Shown here: positions 3,611 to 44,267 of the stretch, piece by piece
Numbering within the stretch: the first letter of the stretch is position 1
Layout of the letters: each line of letters begins with the position of its first letter
Program-made: the position numbers and the translations under genes
Source of the DNA: a virus
Strand: one strand, 5' to 3'
Length of the DNA stretch: 60,773 nucleotides
IMG/VR virus record: IMGVR_UViG_3300042691_012577
Location: 1 to 60,773 of that record
Notes under the pieces: model-generated
Database searches by the model: none
What the model saw: only the letters and a program-made list of their open reading frames with translations
What the model was told of the DNA's origin: nothing

Positions 3611-3926
3611 GTTGTCGGCGCTTCTCGTCAGCGACCCCTATTGGCCGATCATCCTGCGTCTGTACCGGCTTCTCAGCCGCAAGCGGAACTACTACGGGTG
3701 CGGTCTGAACCCGCTGGAAAACGCACTGGGTGTGCGGGACGAGGGGATTGAGCCTTGGAAATACCAGCTAGCCAGAATCGGGGAGAAGTGCCGTCGCTGC
3801 CGTGGCCCTCTGCGGACAATAGATATACAGGAAACCCTGTCGGATATCGCCGGTCACGCCGTTGTAGGAATTGCGGTTCTCAATGCCGAGTCTGAAGGAC
3901 ATACAAATGAATCTGAAGATCGTTAA
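3528..3926 (+). CDS. MazG-like / DUF1599-type protein
   Basis: A 132-residue protein. The segment RKRNYYGCGLNPLENALGV, then EPWKYQLARIGEKCRR and a final helix DIAGHAVVGIAVL, follow the pattern of DUF1599 (nucleotide-modification-associated) proteins. These resemble all-alpha NTP pyrophosphatases. Such enzymes may hydrolyse or modify nucleotides. The first 20 residues are Thr/Ser-rich and overlap the previous gene. A second ATG at 3534 is possible. Confidence 0.5.
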   Translation: MPMTQTTTLPSGQSTDGSRSRVEALLGELSALLVSDPYWPIILRLYRLLSRKRNYYGCGLNPLENALGVRDEGIEPWKYQLARIGEKCRRCRGPLRTIDIQETLSDIAGHAVVGIAVLNAESEGHTNESEDR

Positions 3927-4239
3927 ATGGCTTCTCGCCCACCAGTCTGCGCTGCTGAAAGTCGTGGAAATCGCCAAGGGCTACGACAAGACCAAGCCAT
4001 GGGTTGTGCAATGGGATGTCGTTGACAAGATCGCCCGCACCGTCCTGCCGATCATGGAGGCAGAACTGGCTACGCCCAAGACGCTGGCCGTGGATGAGCC
4101 GGTGGCCGACCGCGAGGTTCAGATCCTCGCCCTCCAGACGCATTACGCCGCGCTGGGGATCGACTGGAAGCTGGTGGTGGAGGTGATCATCCCGCTGATC
4201 GTCGCCCTCCTGCGGGCGATCTCTGGCACAGAAGAATGA
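3907..4239 (+). CDS. Hypothetical protein with C-terminal membrane segment
   Basis: A 110-residue protein starting MNLKIVKWLL. A strongly hydrophobic stretch near the C-terminus (VVEVIIPLIVALLRAI) suggests a tail anchor or membrane helix. The start overlaps the preceding stop by 20 bases; the stop overlaps the protease ATG. It may help place or export the downstream protease, but this is inference from order alone. Confidence 0.5.
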   Translation: MNLKIVKWLLAHQSALLKVVEIAKGYDKTKPWVVQWDVVDKIARTVLPIMEAELATPKTLAVDEPVADREVQILALQTHYAALGIDWKLVVEVIIPLIVALLRAISGTEE

Positions 4240-5174
4240 GCTTCGTCCACCTCCCTCCCTACCGTGTTACTGGTTACCCACTCGCCGCTCAGAGCGAGGG
4301 TGTGGACTGGGGCCTGTCTGCCTACGGCGTTCCCGCGCTGTGGCAGAGGTATCGGGGCGAAGGCGTGACGGTCGCTGTTGTGGACAGCGGTGTCGCCAAG
4401 CATTTTGCGCTGGACGAAGCCGTCGTTGACTATCGGAACTTCACGACGGACAGCGATATCCACGACACGCTGGGGCACGGCACTCACTGTGCTGGCGTGA
4501 TCGGTGCGAGGACCGGCGCGGCCAAGGGGGTTGCCCCGAAGGCAAAATTGTTGAGTCTAAAAGTTCTTGGGCACAGCGGCATGGGCAGCAACGATGCCGT
4601 GGCCCAGGCCGTGACGTTCGCGACCGAGGCCAAGGTAGACATCATCTCCATGTCGCTTGGGTCAGTGCGGCCGGATGACCGTGTACACACCGCGATCAAA
4701 GCGGCGTACGACAAGGGGATCATCGTAGTCTGTGCAGCCGGGAACGATGGCGGGTCGGTGAACTACCCGGCCGCGTTCCCGGAGACTATCGCGGTTGGCG
4801 CCGTGGATCGCAGCGGCAACGTGTGCGAGTTCTCTTCCCGTGGGAGGGAGATCGCCGTCGCCGCCCCCGGCGCCGACATCACTTCGACATGGCTGGCCAA
4901 CGGCTACGCCACGATCAGCGGCACCTCAATGGCGGCTCCGTTCGTCGCTGGCATCCTCGCGCTCTATGTCTCCGCATGCAAGCACGACGGCGACAAGGTC
5001 GATCACTCGCATGTCACCGATGCCCTTGCAAGGACATGCAAGGACGTTGGCGCTACCGGACGCGACGATGTCTACGGCTGGGGCCTGTTGGACCCGCACA
5101 AGCTGCTCACCTATGAGGTCCGACCGAACGTGGCAGGCGTAACGATTTTCATACCTGGAGCAAAGATCCTGTGA
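4236..5174 (+). CDS. Subtilisin-like serine protease (S8 family)
   Basis: A 312-residue protein with the complete S8 catalytic set in the expected order: Asp50 in VAVVDSGV, His81 in GHGTHCAG, oxyanion Asn170 in AAGNDGG and Ser231 in SGTSMAAP. It should hydrolyse peptide bonds. The length matches a bare catalytic domain; there is no clear signal peptide or long propeptide. Subtilases are rare in phages. Neighbours include small membrane proteins, an exported protein and a papain-like protease, which suggests attack on a proteinaceous surface layer, particle maturation or lysis. ATGA coupling to the upstream gene. Confidence 0.93.
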   Translation: MSFVHLPPYRVTGYPLAAQSEGVDWGLSAYGVPALWQRYRGEGVTVAVVDSGVAKHFALDEAVVDYRNFTTDSDIHDTLGHGTHCAGVIGARTGAAKGVAPKAKLLSLKVLGHSGMGSNDAVAQAVTFATEAKVDIISMSLGSVRPDDRVHTAIKAAYDKGIIVVCAAGNDGGSVNYPAAFPETIAVGAVDRSGNVCEFSSRGREIAVAAPGADITSTWLANGYATISGTSMAAPFVAGILALYVSACKHDGDKVDHSHVTDALARTCKDVGATGRDDVYGWGLLDPHKLLTYEVRPNVAGVTIFIPGAKIL

Positions 5175-5383
5175 CCCCCGCGCAGATTGGTTCCCTGTGT
5201 TTCTTGGCGGCTGTCGCCGCGTGGCTGTACTGGCCGTCCATCGTGGCGGTCTTTCCAAAGAAGACCCCGAGCATCTTGGGCCAGATTGAGGATGTGATTT
5301 CCATCCGCGATTCACACCGCGACGAGGAGGTTACCAAAGCATGCAACGCTCTGTTGGCAGTGCTGTTGCGGGTGAGCAAGTGA
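5171..5383 (+). CDS. Small single-span membrane protein
   Basis: A 70-residue protein starting on GTG in a GTGA overlap with the protease stop. The N-terminus (IGSLCFLAAVAAWLYWPSIV) is one hydrophobic helix; the remainder is soluble and charged. Placement between a protease and an exported protein fits a lysis or export accessory, but no family is recognised. Confidence 0.6.
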   Translation: MTPAQIGSLCFLAAVAAWLYWPSIVAVFPKKTPSILGQIEDVISIRDSHRDEEVTKACNALLAVLLRVSK

Positions 5384-5784
5384 AGCACATCATTCTCACC
5401 GCCGTCGCCTTGGCTGTTGTCTGGTTTTCCTTTGTTCCAGCCAAGGTGCCCGTGGCCCCCGGCCCGGTGACTGTCGCGCTGGCAAAGGCAGACCATGCGG
5501 ACAGGGTGAAGGTCGGCAGCATCTACCGTGCGCTGGCTGACATCACGGAGCGTGACGGCGGAACGCAGATCACGACTCTGTCGATCTGGAGAACGTGCCA
5601 CTCCAGCGTCCTGCGGCTAGCTGTCGGCGGCACCGATCTGCCGGGCAAGTACCCCGGCCTGGACATTGCCGTGGAGAAAGTCCTGTCCACGCACTTCCCG
5701 CTGGGCGATGTCCCCATGACAAAGGAACTGGCGGGCAAGATTTCCGCCGCATGCGAGGAGGTCGCGAAGCAAAGTGGCGGATGA
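5380..5784 (+). CDS. Exported protein with signal peptide
   Basis: A 134-residue protein starting on GTG 5380, which overlaps the previous stop. That start gives a textbook signal sequence: MKHIILTAVALAVVWF followed by a small-residue region near VPA. An in-frame ATG at 5341 would bury it. The mature part has three Cys and is probably periplasmic or extracellular. Sitting between two protease genes, it may be an inhibitor, chaperone or substrate-binding partner. Function unknown. Confidence 0.65.
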   Translation: MKHIILTAVALAVVWFSFVPAKVPVAPGPVTVALAKADHADRVKVGSIYRALADITERDGGTQITTLSIWRTCHSSVLRLAVGGTDLPGKYPGLDIAVEKVLSTHFPLGDVPMTKELAGKISAACEEVAKQSGG

Positions 5785-6736
5785 CGATTTTGTACTAGAC
5801 ACGCCGTACTCGCTACTCAATGCGTACGCGAACCAGGGCCTCGTTGGATACATCAATGACCCGCGTGCGCGGAATGAGTTCCTAGAGTCGCAGAAGTACC
5901 AGTACTTCGACGAGCCAAACATCCGTGGCGTTGGCGCGGGGAAGCGGTCGCTGCTGTTCGCCTACCTGTTGAAGGTGGACCCCGGCGCCTTCTCCGAAAA
6001 ACAAACCACAGGCGACTGTGTGTCCCATGGTTCCCGTAATTGCAGGGACATGACACGCGCCGCCGGGATGTTTGCGCGCAACGAGCCGTACAGCTTCTAC
6101 AAGCGTGGCTCCACTGAGCCGACATACGGTTCGCGTGGTCACGGTGGCCAGGGCATGTCTCCAGCGCAGGCCAGCCGCTTTGAGCGTGACGTTGGATTCC
6201 TCGCGAGAGAGAAGTTTCCGCCGGTCGATCTGTCGAAGTATGACTCCACCATCGGCACAAGATGGGGAACGTCAGGCGTCCCGTCCGCAGTGCAAGAACT
6301 GTGCAAGCGGAACAAGGTTGGCAGGATCACGCTGGTGAAAAACCAAGCTGATCTGATGGACGCCATGTCCAACGGCTACGCCGCACACTCCGGTCAGTAC
6401 GCTGCGTGGAGCGCCGCGCCGAACGACAAGCACTACCACTCGCGTGTGAGCCCCGGATGGAATCACGACATGGCGATTGGCGGCTACGACGATACGAAAT
6501 CTTTCTGGCCGTTCCGCGTTTGGTTCGTGATGAATTCCTGGGGTGCGTGGAACCAGCCGCCGAAGCAGTGGCCTTCCGACTACCCGCCATGGGTGCCGGG
6601 AATGATCGTCGTGAAAGACGATGACTTCCAAGTTTGCTTGGACAACCAGGACTGCTGGGTCTACGGGAACATCGACGGCTACCCGCCGCAGAAGTTGCCT
6701 GACTATGGAACGATTGGACTACTGAATGTTGAGTGA
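5774..6736 (+). CDS. Papain-like cysteine protease (C1-type)
   Basis: A 320-residue protein. Catalytic residues appear in papain order: Cys82 in TGDCVSHG, His231 in WNHDMAIGGYDD and Asn254 in FVMNSWGAWN. The Gly before the Cys and the NSWG motif are diagnostic. There is no signal peptide. Phage members of this fold are often virion-associated or lytic peptidases. Here it follows a subtilase and an exported protein, so a role in breaching the envelope is plausible. GTG start overlapping the upstream stop. Confidence 0.85.
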   Translation: MADDDFVLDTPYSLLNAYANQGLVGYINDPRARNEFLESQKYQYFDEPNIRGVGAGKRSLLFAYLLKVDPGAFSEKQTTGDCVSHGSRNCRDMTRAAGMFARNEPYSFYKRGSTEPTYGSRGHGGQGMSPAQASRFERDVGFLAREKFPPVDLSKYDSTIGTRWGTSGVPSAVQELCKRNKVGRITLVKNQADLMDAMSNGYAAHSGQYAAWSAAPNDKHYHSRVSPGWNHDMAIGGYDDTKSFWPFRVWFVMNSWGAWNQPPKQWPSDYPPWVPGMIVVKDDDFQVCLDNQDCWVYGNIDGYPPQKLPDYGTIGLLNVE

Positions 6737-6974
6737 AATCTTTTTCTTGCTGGCCGTCGATGACATCCCGGCGAAGGTGTCGGCGGAAGTCGCCTACTCG
6801 CTGCTGAAGCCGGTGCCTGTGGTGAGCAAGTGCTGCGGTCAGTGCAAGGGTGGCGTGATCATTCACGGCGACGGGCACCAGACCCCCTGCCCATGCCCTG
6901 CGAACTGCAAGTGTCGGACGAAATCGATCCTTCTTCCGGGGTGCAAGACATGTCCGTCACCGCAGAGCAAGTAG
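6726..6974 (+). CDS. Cys-rich small protein
   Basis: An 82-residue protein whose C-terminal half carries CCGQC, GDGHQTPCPCPANCKC and PGCKTC, nine Cys with one conserved-looking GDGH. This suggests one or two metal sites or disulfides. The N-terminus MLSEIFFLLAV is hydrophobic but short. It overlaps both neighbours. No family name is certain. Confidence 0.55.
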   Translation: MLSEIFFLLAVDDIPAKVSAEVAYSLLKPVPVVSKCCGQCKGGVIIHGDGHQTPCPCPANCKCRTKSILLPGCKTCPSPQSK

Positions 6975-7252
6975 CGGAGGAGTGCGTTCGACAGTCCGGT
7001 GCTGGACGATTCAGCAAACACGCCCGCCTTGTTGCGATGGTCGCAATCGCCAAGCTGCCAGAGGGCGAGGTCGATCTTGCCGCCTACCGCGCCGAGGTCC
7101 GCAAGGAATGCAAGGACCGCTACGGCTCAGTCCTCCTGCTCATTGTCCTACCGATACTCGTCAACCTCGTCACCGCATGGATCATTCGATGGATGACCAC
7201 CAAAGGATTGCCGCTGAAAAGTTTGAGGAGTCAGGCGCAGGCCGCACTCTGA
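6950..7252 (+). CDS. Small membrane protein
   Basis: A 100-residue protein starting MSVTAEQVAEECVRQ, with a strong C-terminal transmembrane segment (VLLLIVLPILVNLVTAWII) followed by a basic tail. One-span topology and position in the lysis-like block make it a holin or anchor candidate. It overlaps the preceding gene by 25 bases and the next by 64. Confidence 0.55.
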   Translation: MSVTAEQVAEECVRQSGAGRFSKHARLVAMVAIAKLPEGEVDLAAYRAEVRKECKDRYGSVLLLIVLPILVNLVTAWIIRWMTTKGLPLKSLRSQAQAAL

Positions 7253-7425
7253 TCCGGCTGACATGCGTGTATGACGGAGAGACACACATCTACCAGTTTC
7301 CCCCCGGAGAAGCCCAAGGCGTGGCAGAGATCATCGCTCTGCATGTTGGAGAAGGTCAACTAATACCAGAGGCGGGAAGCATCCTGTGCCTCATGGCGTT
7401 CAACGAGATTCGGAACCATGAGTGA
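7189..7425 (+). CDS. Hypothetical protein
   Basis: A 78-residue acidic protein with a beta-rich core (RLTCVYDGETHIYQF). An ATG twelve bases upstream is an alternative start. It overlaps both neighbours in different frames. No domain is recognised. Confidence 0.5.
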   Translation: MDDHQRIAAEKFEESGAGRTLIRLTCVYDGETHIYQFPPGEAQGVAEIIALHVGEGQLIPEAGSILCLMAFNEIRNHE

Positions 7426-7645
7426 GTCAACAGAGATTTGGTTGGTCGGCATCAGCATCGCGGCGGCTGTCGTTCCGTGGGCGATGAGCATTCACGCGAA
7501 GGTGGCGGTGATCGCACGGTCGGTGGAAGAACTCCCGGCCCTCATAAAGGAACTCAGCGAGACACTGGAGGAACATGAGGTGCGGCTGAACCGCCATGAC
7601 CAAGAGATACAGACTCTCAAAAGCAAGACAGACCCTCGTCCTTAA
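7418..7645 (+). CDS. Membrane-anchored coiled-coil protein (holin/spanin-like candidate)
   Basis: A 75-residue protein: an N-terminal hydrophobic helix (WLVGISIAAAVVPWAM), then a heptad-like charged region (LIKELSETLEEHEVRL). This is the arrangement of small phage membrane proteins linked to lysis. Its gene overlaps the sigma-like gene by 50 bases. Lysis function is inferred from topology and place only. Confidence 0.55.
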   Translation: MSESTEIWLVGISIAAAVVPWAMSIHAKVAVIARSVEELPALIKELSETLEEHEVRLNRHDQEIQTLKSKTDPRP

Positions 7646-8174
7646 CCACTGCGAACTCGTAAGAGTTCTTGCCCGTTATTTCTTACAGCATCGGCCGCAC
7701 TGGCAACGGTCGCTGTACGTCTGCGACCTGGAGGGGGAGGGATACCTTGCCCTCACCAAGGCAGCTAGGACGTACGACAAGCGGCGGTTGCCGTATCCGA
7801 AAGCGTACTTCGCCAGGGCGATCCTCAACGGCATGCTGAAGTACATCCGCCGCGCCACAAGGTCACCGGCAGAGGTGAAGATCAGTCTGGTGCAGGCCGC
7901 TGAGATGTTGCCAGACTGCGATGAGTTGGATCATCTGCGGCTGGCTATAGAAGACCTACCGCTGGAAGACAGGCAGCTAGCGGAAGACAGGTTCGTCGGC
8001 GGCGCTACGTTGCGGACGCTGGCGCGGACGCACCAGATCCCGCTGCGCGTTGCAAGCCTCCGCGCTTCCCGCCTAGCGAAGCAGATTTCGGCCGCTTTGG
8101 ATATCCGTCTTTCGCCGCATGACAAAGCGACCAGACATCGGCCTTGCCGTACCAAGGGCGGCAGTTCTTCCTGA
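7596..8174 (+). CDS. Sigma-70-like transcription factor
   Basis: A 192-residue protein. Residues about 45-90 match sigma region 2 (DLEGEGYLALTKAARTYD, then PKAYFARAILNGMLKYIR). A C-terminal helix-turn-helix-like stretch near 130-165 (LRTLARTHQIPLRVASLR) fits region 4. It would redirect host RNA polymerase to phage promoters. Its last 170 bases overlap the serine recombinase gene on the other strand, including much of region 4, so both strands are under constraint there. Confidence 0.7.
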   Translation: MTKRYRLSKARQTLVLNHCELVRVLARYFLQHRPHWQRSLYVCDLEGEGYLALTKAARTYDKRRLPYPKAYFARAILNGMLKYIRRATRSPAEVKISLVQAAEMLPDCDELDHLRLAIEDLPLEDRQLAEDRFVGGATLRTLARTHQIPLRVASLRASRLAKQISAALDIRLSPHDKATRHRPCRTKGGSSS

Positions 8175-8784
8175 CCACCGGCCTGCGGATGTTCTCCTTG
8201 CAGAGTTGCAGCGTGATCTGGGAGTAGCTCATGCCGCTCTCCCGCATCTTCACGACGCGGTCGCCAAGCTGCCGCTCCTTTTCGCAGACGGCCCACTGGT
8301 CGCCGTCACGCACCCAGCCGAACGGGCGGAACCCGCCGTATGGCCGGTCGTGCTTGCGAAGGTAGGCGAATATTTCCTTCTGTCGTGACGAGTTGACGCG
8401 GGACTCGTACCTCGCCGTGGACAGGCGGATGCCAAACACCAGTTCGCCCGGCGCGGTGGTGGTGTCAATCGCCATGTCCATGAGGATCAGCTTAATCCCC
8501 ATGGAATGCCACGCATCCAGCGTGTTCCATGCGTCTGCGTTGGAGCGGAACGCACGGTCAACTGCCGGGATCACGACAGTGTCCCCAGGCTGAAGGGCAG
8601 CCCACAGCTTGGCGCCCTCTCGCCTGCGCCGCAGTGGGATGCTGAACGCGGACTGGTCCTCGTCCAAGAAGATGCCGCCAAGCGGCAGGCCCAGCTTCTC
8701 TGCGTAGTCTTGCAGCTTCTGCCGCTGGTTGTCTATGGAGTTTTCCTGGTCATCTGTAGATACGCGACCGTAGCAGTACAGCAT
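8005..8784 (-). CDS. Serine recombinase (resolvase/invertase family)
   Basis: A 259-residue protein. The catalytic serine is at position 9 in YGRVSTDDQ. It is followed by the resolvase core: DEDQSAFS, GDTVVIPAVDRAFRS with its conserved Asp and Arg, and a region with GELVFGIR. A recombinase-domain segment follows (PYGGFRPFGW, then MRESGMSYSQI). It catalyses site-specific DNA exchange through a 5' phosphoserine. It is shorter than large integrases, and the final 40 or so residues look unconstrained where they overlap the sigma-like gene. The ATG directly follows the stop of a tiny membrane ORF. Confidence 0.88.
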   Translation of the reverse strand: MLYCYGRVSTDDQENSIDNQRQKLQDYAEKLGLPLGGIFLDEDQSAFSIPLRRRREGAKLWAALQPGDTVVIPAVDRAFRSNADAWNTLDAWHSMGIKLILMDMAIDTTTAPGELVFGIRLSTARYESRVNSSRQKEIFAYLRKHDRPYGGFRPFGWVRDGDQWAVCEKERQLGDRVVKMRESGMSYSQITLQLCKENIRRPVVRKNCRPWYGKADVWSLCHAAKDGYPKRPKSASLGGKRGGLQRAAGSGASAPASAT

Positions 8785-18755: not shown

Positions 18756-19646
18756 TCACGCTGCCTTGGAAGGATGAATCTTGGAGAACAGCCCCCGCAC
18801 CGTACGGGGGACACTGACCGCAAAGCCCGACATGCGGGCCATCCACCGGCCGAAAGAGAAGCCCTTCAGCCGCAGGCCGACGCAGACCGGCCCGTCATCC
18901 AGGAACCGGAAATCGGACTTGTCGCCGTCAACGACACGCCACCGATACCCGTTGGGATCGGTGTACCACGTTGGCAGTTGCCCGAACTTGCGGCCGTTCT
19001 CATGCCCGCCCGGTTGCCAGAACGTGTCAAAGACCACGGCAATGTTGGCACCGGAGTCGTAGACGTTCTGCCAGTCATCCGCCGTCGTGCCATCGTTGAC
19101 TGAGTAGGTCAGATGGTAGTTGGCGGGAGTCTTGCCCAGCCGCGTGGAGACTTTCGTGTAGTCCCAAAACTGCATGGGCAGATTGAACAACTCAGGGACC
19201 GTGCGTTCCCACGGGACATCGGAGTCCACGTTAGGGCGGCACGCTACCACCTGACCGTCTTTGGCCTTGCGAATTTCGGCCCGCAGTTCGTCCAGCAGAT
19301 GGGCAACGAACTCGGCACGGTTCTCCCGATACCAGCGCGTCAGGTTCTTGCGGGGATTGCGGACAAAATCCGCAGCCCCCTTGCCTGCCTCATTGGTGAC
19401 GCAGGACGCAGTACACATCGACAGCCCACGCGAATGGGCCACCGCTGCGATCTGCTCCCATGTCTGACCAGCCTTGCGCAGGGCATCGATCTGCGACCTG
19501 GGCATAGCCCGTGGGCAGACGTTGAACCCGGCTGTATCGCTGGCCGCAAGAGAAACCGTGCATGAGCGAACATCGAACCGCTCACCGTGAGCGATTTTAG
19601 TGTTCGACTTACCCGGCTGGACGATGCGGGCAATGGAATAACCCAT
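18756..19646 (-). CDS. GP88-like phage protein
   Basis: A 296-residue protein, the largest of the cassette apart from the recombinase region. The ordered motifs are NVCPRA, the CTASCVTNEAG Cys region, NPRKNLTRWYRENRAEFV, RPNVDSDVPWE, QFWDYTKVSTR, NYHLTYS, VVDGDKSDFRF and VGLRLKG. They match my memory of the mycobacteriophage gene-88-like (GP88/DUF7227-type) family. The biochemical role of that family is not known to me. Conserved Cys and Asp residues make an enzyme possible. Confidence 0.65.
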   Translation of the reverse strand: MGYSIARIVQPGKSNTKIAHGERFDVRSCTVSLAASDTAGFNVCPRAMPRSQIDALRKAGQTWEQIAAVAHSRGLSMCTASCVTNEAGKGAADFVRNPRKNLTRWYRENRAEFVAHLLDELRAEIRKAKDGQVVACRPNVDSDVPWERTVPELFNLPMQFWDYTKVSTRLGKTPANYHLTYSVNDGTTADDWQNVYDSGANIAVVFDTFWQPGGHENGRKFGQLPTWYTDPNGYRWRVVDGDKSDFRFLDDGPVCVGLRLKGFSFGRWMARMSGFAVSVPRTVRGLFSKIHPSKAA

Positions 19647-41383: not shown

Positions 41384-41646
41384 TCCAGATCGACAAGTGG
41401 CCTGGGCTAGTCACGAACGCATCGCCTTATGCCATCCCGGCTGGAGCGGCCGTGACGCAAGTCAATCTTCAGGTGATCGCTCCCGGCCAGCTTACCGTTA
41501 GGCAGGGTTCCACTACCGTGTCGTTCGCCACGCACACTGGCTCCACGGCGTCGGTCATTCGGATGTTCCGTTATCCGCGAGAGAACGAGAACTTGGTGTA
41601 CCAGAATTTTTCCGGCGCGATCTTTGTCGGCAGGAGTCCCTCCTAA
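41380..41646 (+). CDS. Small protein, possibly N-terminal part of the tail nozzle protein
   Basis: An 88-residue protein (MIQIDKWPGLVTNASPY...). The start, with GLVTNASPYAIPAGAAVTQV and NLQVIAPGQLTVRQG, is the typical N-terminus of large tail tubular B-like proteins. Here it ends with a TAATG junction to the large downstream gene. It may be a split nozzle protein made as two chains. Confidence 0.55.
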   Translation: MIQIDKWPGLVTNASPYAIPAGAAVTQVNLQVIAPGQLTVRQGSTTVSFATHTGSTASVIRMFRYPRENENLVYQNFSGAIFVGRSPS

Positions 41647-44267
41647 TGCAGATCGGTGGCCGCACGACCGGCGGGCTGGTGTCGATCCAGGTGACCACTG
41701 GTGGCGTGTCGTACACATCTGCGCCGACCGTCGCTATCTCTGGTGGCGGCGGAACGGGGGCGACAGCGGTGTGCCACATGGCCGGCACTCGCGTTGAGTC
41801 CATCGTGATCGGCAATGCTGGCACTGGGTACACATCGAACCCCACGGTGACCATCAGCGGTGGCAGTGGCAGTGGGGCTGGAGCGACGGCGACGGCCTAC
41901 ACCGGATCCCTGCGGCCACTGTCCTTCTTTAAGGGCCGTTACGGCGATCTGTACGGCGTGGACGGCATGGGGCGTGGCTTCCGCTGGGACGGAGCCGCAA
42001 CGAGCGTGGAGCGGCTGGGAATTGCGAAACCCTCCATGCCACCGGCAGTGACATCTTCAGCGTCCTCCTCTGGCGGATACGTGTCCGGCGTGCAGATGGT
42101 TGCCGCCGGCGCTGGCTACCACAGCGCGCCAACCGTGACGTTCACTGGCGGGTCGGCGACAAGTCCCGCCAGGGCGATTGCTTCCGTGCAGAACGGGCGA
42201 GTAACCGGCATTCGCGTTACGGACCCCGGCAGCGGCTACCAAACAAACCCCACGGTCAGCCTGTCTGGCGGCATAGGAACCGGGGCCAGCTTCTCTGTGG
42301 GCGTTATTGGCACGGCCAACAACCTGACGCTCTCGTCGCCTGGGGCCGGCTACACATCCAACGCGACAACGTCCCCCACGGTGCAGTTCGCCACCGGCCA
42401 AGGTCTGACGAGCGCGTACGCAACGGTATCCGTCTCGGCCGATGGAACCATCTCTTCCGTGGCTCTGATTTCAGGCGGGACTGGGGCGACCACCTCCGGA
42501 GTTACGGCCAGCATCATCGGCGGCGGCGGAACTGGCGCTTCAATAGATGTTGGCATGTTGTTCTCTGTGGTGTCTCTCACGGCGGCATCCAGCGGGAGCG
42601 GGTACTTCACGGCTCCACAGATATCCTTCCGTTCCGCAGCCACCGATCCCAGCGGGTACGGCGCAGGCGCTACGGCAATCGTGAATTCTCTTGGCAACGT
42701 GACCGGCGCGGCCGTCTACGCGGGCGGTCAGTACGGGGCCATACCCACCGCCTACATTGCCGACACCACCGCCAGGGCGCAGGCGTCGGTGGCGTTCCCG
42801 ATGAAGGGCCGTTACAAGTGCGCCATTCGCTACCTGGATGACACGCCCGAAAGCCAGAACGGACCCATTCCTTCCAGCATCTCGTGGCTCCAAGAGATTG
42901 ACGCCGGAAGCGGTGCTGGCCAGCTAACGTGGTCCTTCACGCACGACGGCATAGAGGGTCGCGTCCACTCCATGGAACTGTGGCGCACCAGCGCCGAGCA
43001 ATCCGTGGTGCTGTACCGCGTGGCGACCATCCTGCGTTCCGACGCCGCGTTCACCGCCACGTACACGGACACGCTGACCGACATCGAATTGCAGGACACG
43101 ACGCGGGCAGACTACGGCCTCATGCCGATCACGCTGCCTTCCGGCCAGATCAACGCCCGCCGGTTTGAGATCCCGCCGGGGAACTACGCCGTGGCCTGCA
43201 TGTTCCAAGACCGCGCGTGGTATGCGGTGGACACGACTGGGGCCAAGCCGAACTCGCTCTTCTACTCCGAGATTGACGAGCCGGAATCCGTCCCCGAAGC
43301 CAACGAACTGGTGGTCCAAGAAAACACGACGGAAACCGACTCCATCGTGGCGCTCATACCGCTGGGGTCGGAATTGCTGATAGCCCAGCGGGCGCATGTC
43401 TACAAACTGAACTACGTTGCGCAGCCCGTGCTGGACGCGAGCCTTATTCTGGGAGCCTATCGCGGCATTCTCAACAGTCGCTGCTGGGACATCTTGGGCG
43501 GCGTGGCGTTCATCGCTGATAGCAATGGCCTCTACGCCTACGACGGCAACAACGAAGACCCCGTCTCCGTGCCTGTCGATAACTACTGGCGGGATCGCAT
43601 CATCGACTTCTCCAAGTCAGACAAGTTCCATGTGAAGGCCGACATGACCACACGGACGGTGCGGTTCTACTACTGCAAATCCGGGGACTCCGAGCCTGTT
43701 CGGGCGCTGTGCTTCTGCGTTGCGACAAAGGCGTGGTGGGAGGAGTCCTATCCAAACGCCATCACGGCGGCGTGCCCAATGATGATGGGCGGAAAGTACT
43801 CGTCTGTCCAGGGAACGTCCTCCGGTTTTTTCGTCCAAGCGTCCGGCTCTATCGACACGGGCAGCACCCCCATCGCCTACGAGTACCGCACGGGCGTTGC
43901 GCGGTTGAAGGACGAGAACGGATCGCGGTCTGTTGGCGTTCTGTTTCAACCGACAACGGACGATGCCACGCTCCAAGTGAGGATGCACTACAACAACTCC
44001 AGCACACCCAGGCCGAACGCCATAGCGTCTGACAGGGGCAACGGCTTCACCACAACGCTTGGTTCGACGGCCGCCACGCTCAATATGAAGAAGACGCAGT
44101 CGCTGGGGGAAGCCAACGGTTTCGCCAAGGCGTACTACGCCGGCCGGCAGGATGATCGCTCTTCCGGTGGCGACAGGCACATCGCCGTCGCCGTTGCGGG
44201 AACGCAGGCCGCGACCACTGGCAACAGCGTGGTGATCTACGGCATCACGGTTGAGGGGGCCGAGTAA
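41646..44267 (+). CDS. Tail tubular protein B-like (nozzle) with inserted beta repeats
   Basis: An 873-residue protein. Residues 1-390 contain repeated Gly/Thr/Val-rich units with motifs such as GxGYTSNPTVTISGGSGSGA. The second half has the conserved nozzle-like part (MKGRYKCAIRYLDDTPES, EIDEPESVPEANELVV, TTRTVRFYYCKSGD). It should form the tail tip and take part in DNA ejection. The preceding 88-residue gene supplies the usual N-terminus. Confidence 0.65.
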   Translation: MQIGGRTTGGLVSIQVTTGGVSYTSAPTVAISGGGGTGATAVCHMAGTRVESIVIGNAGTGYTSNPTVTISGGSGSGAGATATAYTGSLRPLSFFKGRYGDLYGVDGMGRGFRWDGAATSVERLGIAKPSMPPAVTSSASSSGGYVSGVQMVAAGAGYHSAPTVTFTGGSATSPARAIASVQNGRVTGIRVTDPGSGYQTNPTVSLSGGIGTGASFSVGVIGTANNLTLSSPGAGYTSNATTSPTVQFATGQGLTSAYATVSVSADGTISSVALISGGTGATTSGVTASIIGGGGTGASIDVGMLFSVVSLTAASSGSGYFTAPQISFRSAATDPSGYGAGATAIVNSLGNVTGAAVYAGGQYGAIPTAYIADTTARAQASVAFPMKGRYKCAIRYLDDTPESQNGPIPSSISWLQEIDAGSGAGQLTWSFTHDGIEGRVHSMELWRTSAEQSVVLYRVATILRSDAAFTATYTDTLTDIELQDTTRADYGLMPITLPSGQINARRFEIPPGNYAVACMFQDRAWYAVDTTGAKPNSLFYSEIDEPESVPEANELVVQENTTETDSIVALIPLGSELLIAQRAHVYKLNYVAQPVLDASLILGAYRGILNSRCWDILGGVAFIADSNGLYAYDGNNEDPVSVPVDNYWRDRIIDFSKSDKFHVKADMTTRTVRFYYCKSGDSEPVRALCFCVATKAWWEESYPNAITAACPMMMGGKYSSVQGTSSGFFVQASGSIDTGSTPIAYEYRTGVARLKDENGSRSVGVLFQPTTDDATLQVRMHYNNSSTPRPNAIASDRGNGFTTTLGSTAATLNMKKTQSLGEANGFAKAYYAGRQDDRSSGGDRHIAVAVAGTQAATTGNSVVIYGITVEGAE

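Follow-up and report, generated by a model that had tools for sequence, protein, structure and literature searches.

How a bacteriophage leaves a planctomycete cell is, as far as the literature searched shows, undescribed, and the locus presented here raises the question of whether proteases could take the place of a conventional endolysin at that step. The window, by which we mean the whole 60,773-bp stretch of an IMG/VR virus record that was analysed, carries a 69-bp direct repeat at both ends, which suggests a circularised, near-complete genome; it belongs to a freshwater phage with a host that is probably a planctomycete. At 4236-6736 lie four overlapping genes, for a subtilase of family S8 (S8), a small membrane protein (g12), a small protein with a hydrophobic N-terminus (g13) and a C1-like protease (C1). 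A preliminary description had singled out this cassette from the sequence, and both its coordinates and the overlap of each gene with the next were correct (Table 1): S8 overlaps the upstream gene g10 and also g12 by 4 nt, g12 and g13 share another 4 nt, and the g13/C1 and C1/g15 overlaps are 11 nt each. We argue below that the C1-like protease may lead an envelope or lysis function in planctomycete phages, with the subtilase as a zymogen activated late, and put the probability of this reading at roughly 45%.

Table 1. Coordinates of the cassette genes, their neighbours and other genes mentioned in the text (in the window, except for the last three rows)
Feature	Position	Strand	Description
g10	3907..4239	+	~110 aa, hydrophobic segment near the C-terminus; S8 follows directly, with a 4-nt ATGA overlap
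S8	4236..5174	+	312 aa, subtilase, apparently of intracellular (ISP) type
g12	5171..5383	+	70 aa, predicted single-span membrane protein; one N-terminal TM-like hydrophobic stretch
g13	5380..5784	+	134 aa, N-terminal hydrophobic helix and helical bundle (predicted)
C1	5774..6736	+	320 aa, predicted papain-fold (C1-like) cysteine protease, without signal sequence
g15	6726..6974	+	82 aa, small Cys-rich (zinc-finger-like) protein
g16a	6971..7252	+	~93 aa, C-terminal TM-like segment
g17	7418..7645	+	75 aa, N-terminal TM and coiled coil, weakly XhlA/holin-like
Serine-recombinase-like gene	8005-8784	-	assignment inferred from PHROG tallies only
Probable tyrosine integrase	18756-19646	-	assignment inferred from PHROG tallies only
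Thioredoxin-like protein, L127	8714-9274		near C1
Thioredoxin-like protein, L128	10660-11184		near C1
Thioredoxin-like protein, L129	10609-11181		near C1

The C1 protein of the window has no match in Pfam, PHROG or NCBIfam, nor in INPHARED. The papain model PF00112 is reached weakly by 6 of 50 relatives (best E 0.0025) and not by the window protein, and a sequence-only search of the PDB is not significant with the single sequence and marginal with a profile. The assignment is settled by the fold search: the AF2 model (pLDDT 89.8, pTM 0.90) matches xylellain (Foldseek E 1.3e-8) and many cathepsins in the PDB; in BFVD its matches are C1 peptidases from giant viruses and from uncultured Caudovirales phages. 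Across 50 aligned sequences Q77, C82 and H231 are invariant and N254-S-W-G is conserved in at least 90%. Pairwise dN/dS for C1 is 0.04-0.19. Since the predicted fold is that of papain, yet the window protein falls below the curated PF00112 model, we describe C1 as a papain-fold family that is new and divergent; a relative is encoded by 529 viral stretches in IMG/VR.

The subtilase is recognised at once by PF00082 (E 6.8e-54 in a Pfam scan), the domain starting at residue 41. All 47 aligned sequences keep the catalytic triad (D50/H81/S231), the oxyanion N170 and an N-terminal LPPY segment (HLPPY) without change. Pairwise dN/dS lies at 0.04-0.22. The best PDB match is an intracellular subtilisin (ISP), 7y6m (E 2.8e-48), aligned from residue 5 in such a way that HLPPYRV falls onto RLIPYEV. 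In ISPs a LIPY/F segment blocks the active site (PMC6220982), and by analogy the LPPY of S8 may do the same. By its sequence, S8 appears to be of the ISP type: the N-terminus is short and non-hydrophobic, with neither a signal peptide nor an I9 prodomain, and the testable marks of the type (no signal peptide, short N-terminal extension, triad, oxyanion Asn) are all present save the exact LIPY/F sequence, in which the second residue differs. Export is therefore not what its sequence suggests. The earlier claim of two proteases of different catalytic classes, each with a complete catalytic set, is borne out by the conservation of the S8 triad and of the C1 Q-C-H-N residues among relatives, and both enzymes look active and are under purifying selection.

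Inteins occur at the active sites of both proteases, in C1 of four relatives and in S8 of one. An intein of ~400 aa lies directly before the catalytic cysteine in the C1 of L031/L268, L045, L262 and L263 (QTTGD^CFVAGT...YAVHN^CVSHG), where this cysteine doubles as the splicing residue; a separate intein sits inside the catalytic His motif in the S8 of L017/L217 (GHG^CIAPD...VIVSN^THCAG). Inteins tend to settle in the conserved active sites of proteins that are needed, and their presence here lends indirect support to the idea that the two active sites are important for the phage.

Conservation of the four-gene order in other phages had been proposed as a check, and the order S8-g13-C1 was found in all 47 distinct relatives with a C1 at least 53% identical and 1.6 kb of upstream DNA present; g12 was detected in 34 of these. 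Together with pairwise dN/dS values of ~0.04-0.36 for S8, C1, g12, g13, g15 and g17, this argues that the cassette is not a chance arrangement. S8 was present in 0 of 23 more distant C1 loci with upstream DNA, within the DNA examined, and the C1 proteins linked to S8 group as a single clade in a tree (support 100/99), as expected if S8 joined once. The wider C1 family has a g13-like gene upstream in 91 loci and a g15-like Cys-rich gene downstream in 96, with some contigs counted more than once. The space between g13 and C1 is occupied by HNH endonuclease genes in L005 and L008 and, judged by gap size, in L232, L248, L252 and L257.

Cellular relatives of C1 occur in MAGs of Pirellulaceae, Planctomycetaceae and Thermoguttaceae, and in single bins of SAR202, Flavobacteriales, Synechococcaceae, Saprospiraceae and Lokiarchaeota, the latter of which may be misbinned phage. 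Among sampled genomes, with seed genomes excluded, a C1 match was found in 15/391 Planctomycetota vs 0/399 Chloroflexota (Fisher p 2e-5). Several of the matches come from multi-megabase chromosomes or from long contigs, beside genes that appear phage-like by eye, terminase-like in L127, L128, L129 and L136 and tail-like in L135. These cellular relatives, several of them inside prophages, point to Planctomycetota as the host phylum, and the host of the window phage is likely a planctomycete. L094, the nearest of the cellular relatives, is itself phage-like: this 55-kb contig is collinear with the window and was placed in the bin of a Pirellulaceae MAG, and so supports the host by binning only, not by integration. 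The window's own probable tyrosine integrase and serine-recombinase-like gene are consistent with a temperate phage. In seven planctomycete chromosomal loci C1 has an N-terminal TM-like segment of its own, which would suit an enzyme that works beyond the cytoplasm. The planctomycete prophage-like regions L127, L128 and L129 also encode, close to C1, a thioredoxin-like protein that bears a signal and a CPYC or CPHC motif. Another region, L133 on the planctomycete chromosome G166, combines C1 with a lipoprotein-like g13 and a nearby GlsB-like gene; its flanks look chromosomal and it is not clearly a prophage.

The preliminary description had supposed a host with a proteinaceous surface. The planctomycete envelope is unusual and was long described in that way (PMC3422733), which agrees with the supposition; planctomycetes nevertheless do contain peptidoglycan, in sacculi that are sensitive to lysozyme (PMC4432640), and a wall made of protein alone cannot safely be assumed.

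Several short gene products of the cassette region (g10, g12, g13, g16a and g17) have TM-like segments. Homologues of g10 hold the equivalent position in most window-type relatives, and g16a too has homologues at its position, with identities of up to 56%. The conserved start of g13 is the GTG at 5380, which gives 134 aa, rather than 5341; its AF2 model (pLDDT 91.7) shows a single hydrophobic helix at the N-terminus and, after it, a bundle of five helices; a fold search against the PDB returned no structural match. A classical signal peptide had been assigned to this protein, which holds in part only. The hydrophobic helix is present, and its sequence would be compatible with a cleaved signal or an anchor alike; some distant relatives have lipoprotein-like, lipobox-like N-termini, and the window g13 is without a lipobox. 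In g15, C55, C57, C61 and C63 together with D49-G50-H51 are invariant in 36 sequences, and some relatives have a signal-like N-terminal segment. The protein g17, conserved in most window-type relatives, weakly matches the phrog_1296 holin (E 4e-4) and PF10779 XhlA (E 0.009, below the family cut-off). A set of marine relatives encodes a two-TM holin-like protein of 70-77 aa directly upstream of C1, with no match in PHROG.

The main argument had been that no muramidase-type endolysin is recognisable elsewhere in the genome. Amidase_2, Phage_lysozyme, M15_3 and SLT are indeed absent from the window genome, Pfam scans of 43 other window genes found no peptidoglycan-hydrolase domain, and 0/29 C1-bearing viral records carry any of the four families (one match in this search came from MAG G001, which is not a virus). 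The argument is nonetheless weak: a control set of contigs picked for their ribonucleotide reductase (22 without C1 and 7 with it) yielded Phage_lysozyme in 1/29 and M15_3 and Amidase_2 in 0/29 each, and because phages without C1 lack the tested families too, their absence does not discriminate and is ordinary for such contigs at the search sensitivity used. A 'tail lysozyme' match (phrog_1922) in the gene at 41646-44267 was rejected, as it covers only a Gly-rich repeat and not the enzyme domain. Literature titles and abstracts held nothing relevant on a papain-like lysis enzyme of a phage or an endolysin of a planctomycete phage.

On the reading that we prefer, the cassette would belong to phages of Planctomycetota, temperate ones included, with a core of C1, g15 and g13, the last taken as lipoprotein-like or anchored by its N-terminus, common to many viral contigs, to which one phage clade would have added the intracellular-type subtilisin and g12. 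C1 would be made in the cytoplasm and most likely reach the envelope at the end of infection by way of the holin-like membrane proteins encoded nearby, where it would cleave envelope protein, or else the peptides of the wall, and help to release virions in place of a conventional endolysin. S8 would probably be made as a self-inhibited zymogen held by the LPPY segment, and perhaps be switched on late, by calcium influx or by cleavage when the membrane fails. The more specific proposition, that in planctomycete phages C1, let out by small membrane proteins and helped by an anchored partner, replaces the endolysin and that a self-inhibited subtilisin was added in one clade, we regard as less likely than not. 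The protein-based lysis or envelope penetration first suggested for the locus keeps in its favour two active-looking proteases, a conserved order and small membrane proteins all around; it is weakened by the intracellular type of S8 and the uninformative absence of the tested peptidoglycan-hydrolase families. The analysis shows the gene order, the intact and conserved catalytic sites, the predicted folds, the hydrophobic segments and the link to planctomycetes; the role in lysis is one that we infer, as are release, substrate, timing and zymogen control.

Several features speak against lysis: the C1 of the window carries no signal, S8 seems designed for work in the cytoplasm, the cassette follows recombination genes, the holin call for g17 is weak, and planctomycete peptidoglycan yields to lysozyme (PMC4432640). 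Some of these would fit two enzymes working in the host cytoplasm, in takeover, removal of defence proteins or regulators, amino-acid recycling or the processing of phage proteins, with the membrane proteins as separate neighbours. ISPs do process cytoplasmic protein (PMC6220982), neither window protease has an export signal, and the cassette adjoins recombination genes rather than tail genes. Against this stand the fixed operon order with an N-terminally hydrophobic g13 in 47/47 relatives, the prophage forms of C1 with an N-terminal TM-like segment, and the position of the cassette between small TM proteins. We consider cytoplasmic proteolysis rather unlikely and prefer an envelope-directed lysis role because of the TM-bearing small proteins, one of them weakly holin-like, and the TM-like segment in the seven chromosomal C1 proteins. 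Packaging of one or both proteases in the virion or on the tail, for opening the envelope during infection, seems improbable: the C1 of marine relatives does lie near repeat-rich genes that appear tail-fibre-like by eye, but neither protease is fused to a structural-protein domain, the tail genes of the window are distant and S8 is zymogen-like. Equally improbable is a third alternative, in which g13 or g12 inhibits the protease or tethers it to the membrane, in the way that staphostatin partners staphopain, and the unit serves in superinfection exclusion or as a toxin-immunity pair. The overlap of the g13 and C1 genes in the window, their co-occurrence through much of the family and the predicted small helical bundle of g13 would suit such a partner, but no known inhibitor matches g13 in structure, and we give this explanation a low likelihood.

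Set beside known systems, C1 shares the fold, the Q-C-H-N order and the NSWG motif with papain family C1 peptidases (xylellain 3ois, cathepsin B/procathepsin, Cwp84 4ci7), at ~11-17% identity over the fold, and is set apart from them by a family-specific YGARGHGGQGM segment. The Q-to-C spacing is 5 in C1 and 6 in papain. S8 differs from ISPs in being phage-encoded and in an operon with C1; subtilases of Moorella phage MTATph1 and of Bacillus phages share its domain at ~34-45% identity, but its C1 partner has no match in any INPHARED phage record. With holin-endolysin-spanin cassettes the locus has in common overlapping small genes, TM proteins, a hydrolase and, in some relatives, lipoprotein-like proteins. 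The hydrolase is here a papain-fold protease and not a recognised peptidoglycan hydrolase, the holin is only a weak candidate (g17), and no Rz/Rz1-type pair was recognised. As a peptidoglycan hydrolase defines that class, we do not file the cassette under it, and the likeness lies in membrane proteins and layout only. Conserved across hundreds of viral contigs as well as prophages of planctomycetes, and without a family entry, C1 offers a direct handle on phage exit from these cells, and on the identity of the load-bearing envelope protein of planctomycetes. If C1 is the lysis enzyme, it would mark a departure from peptidoglycan-cutting endolysins and provide a ready tool for opening planctomycete cells.
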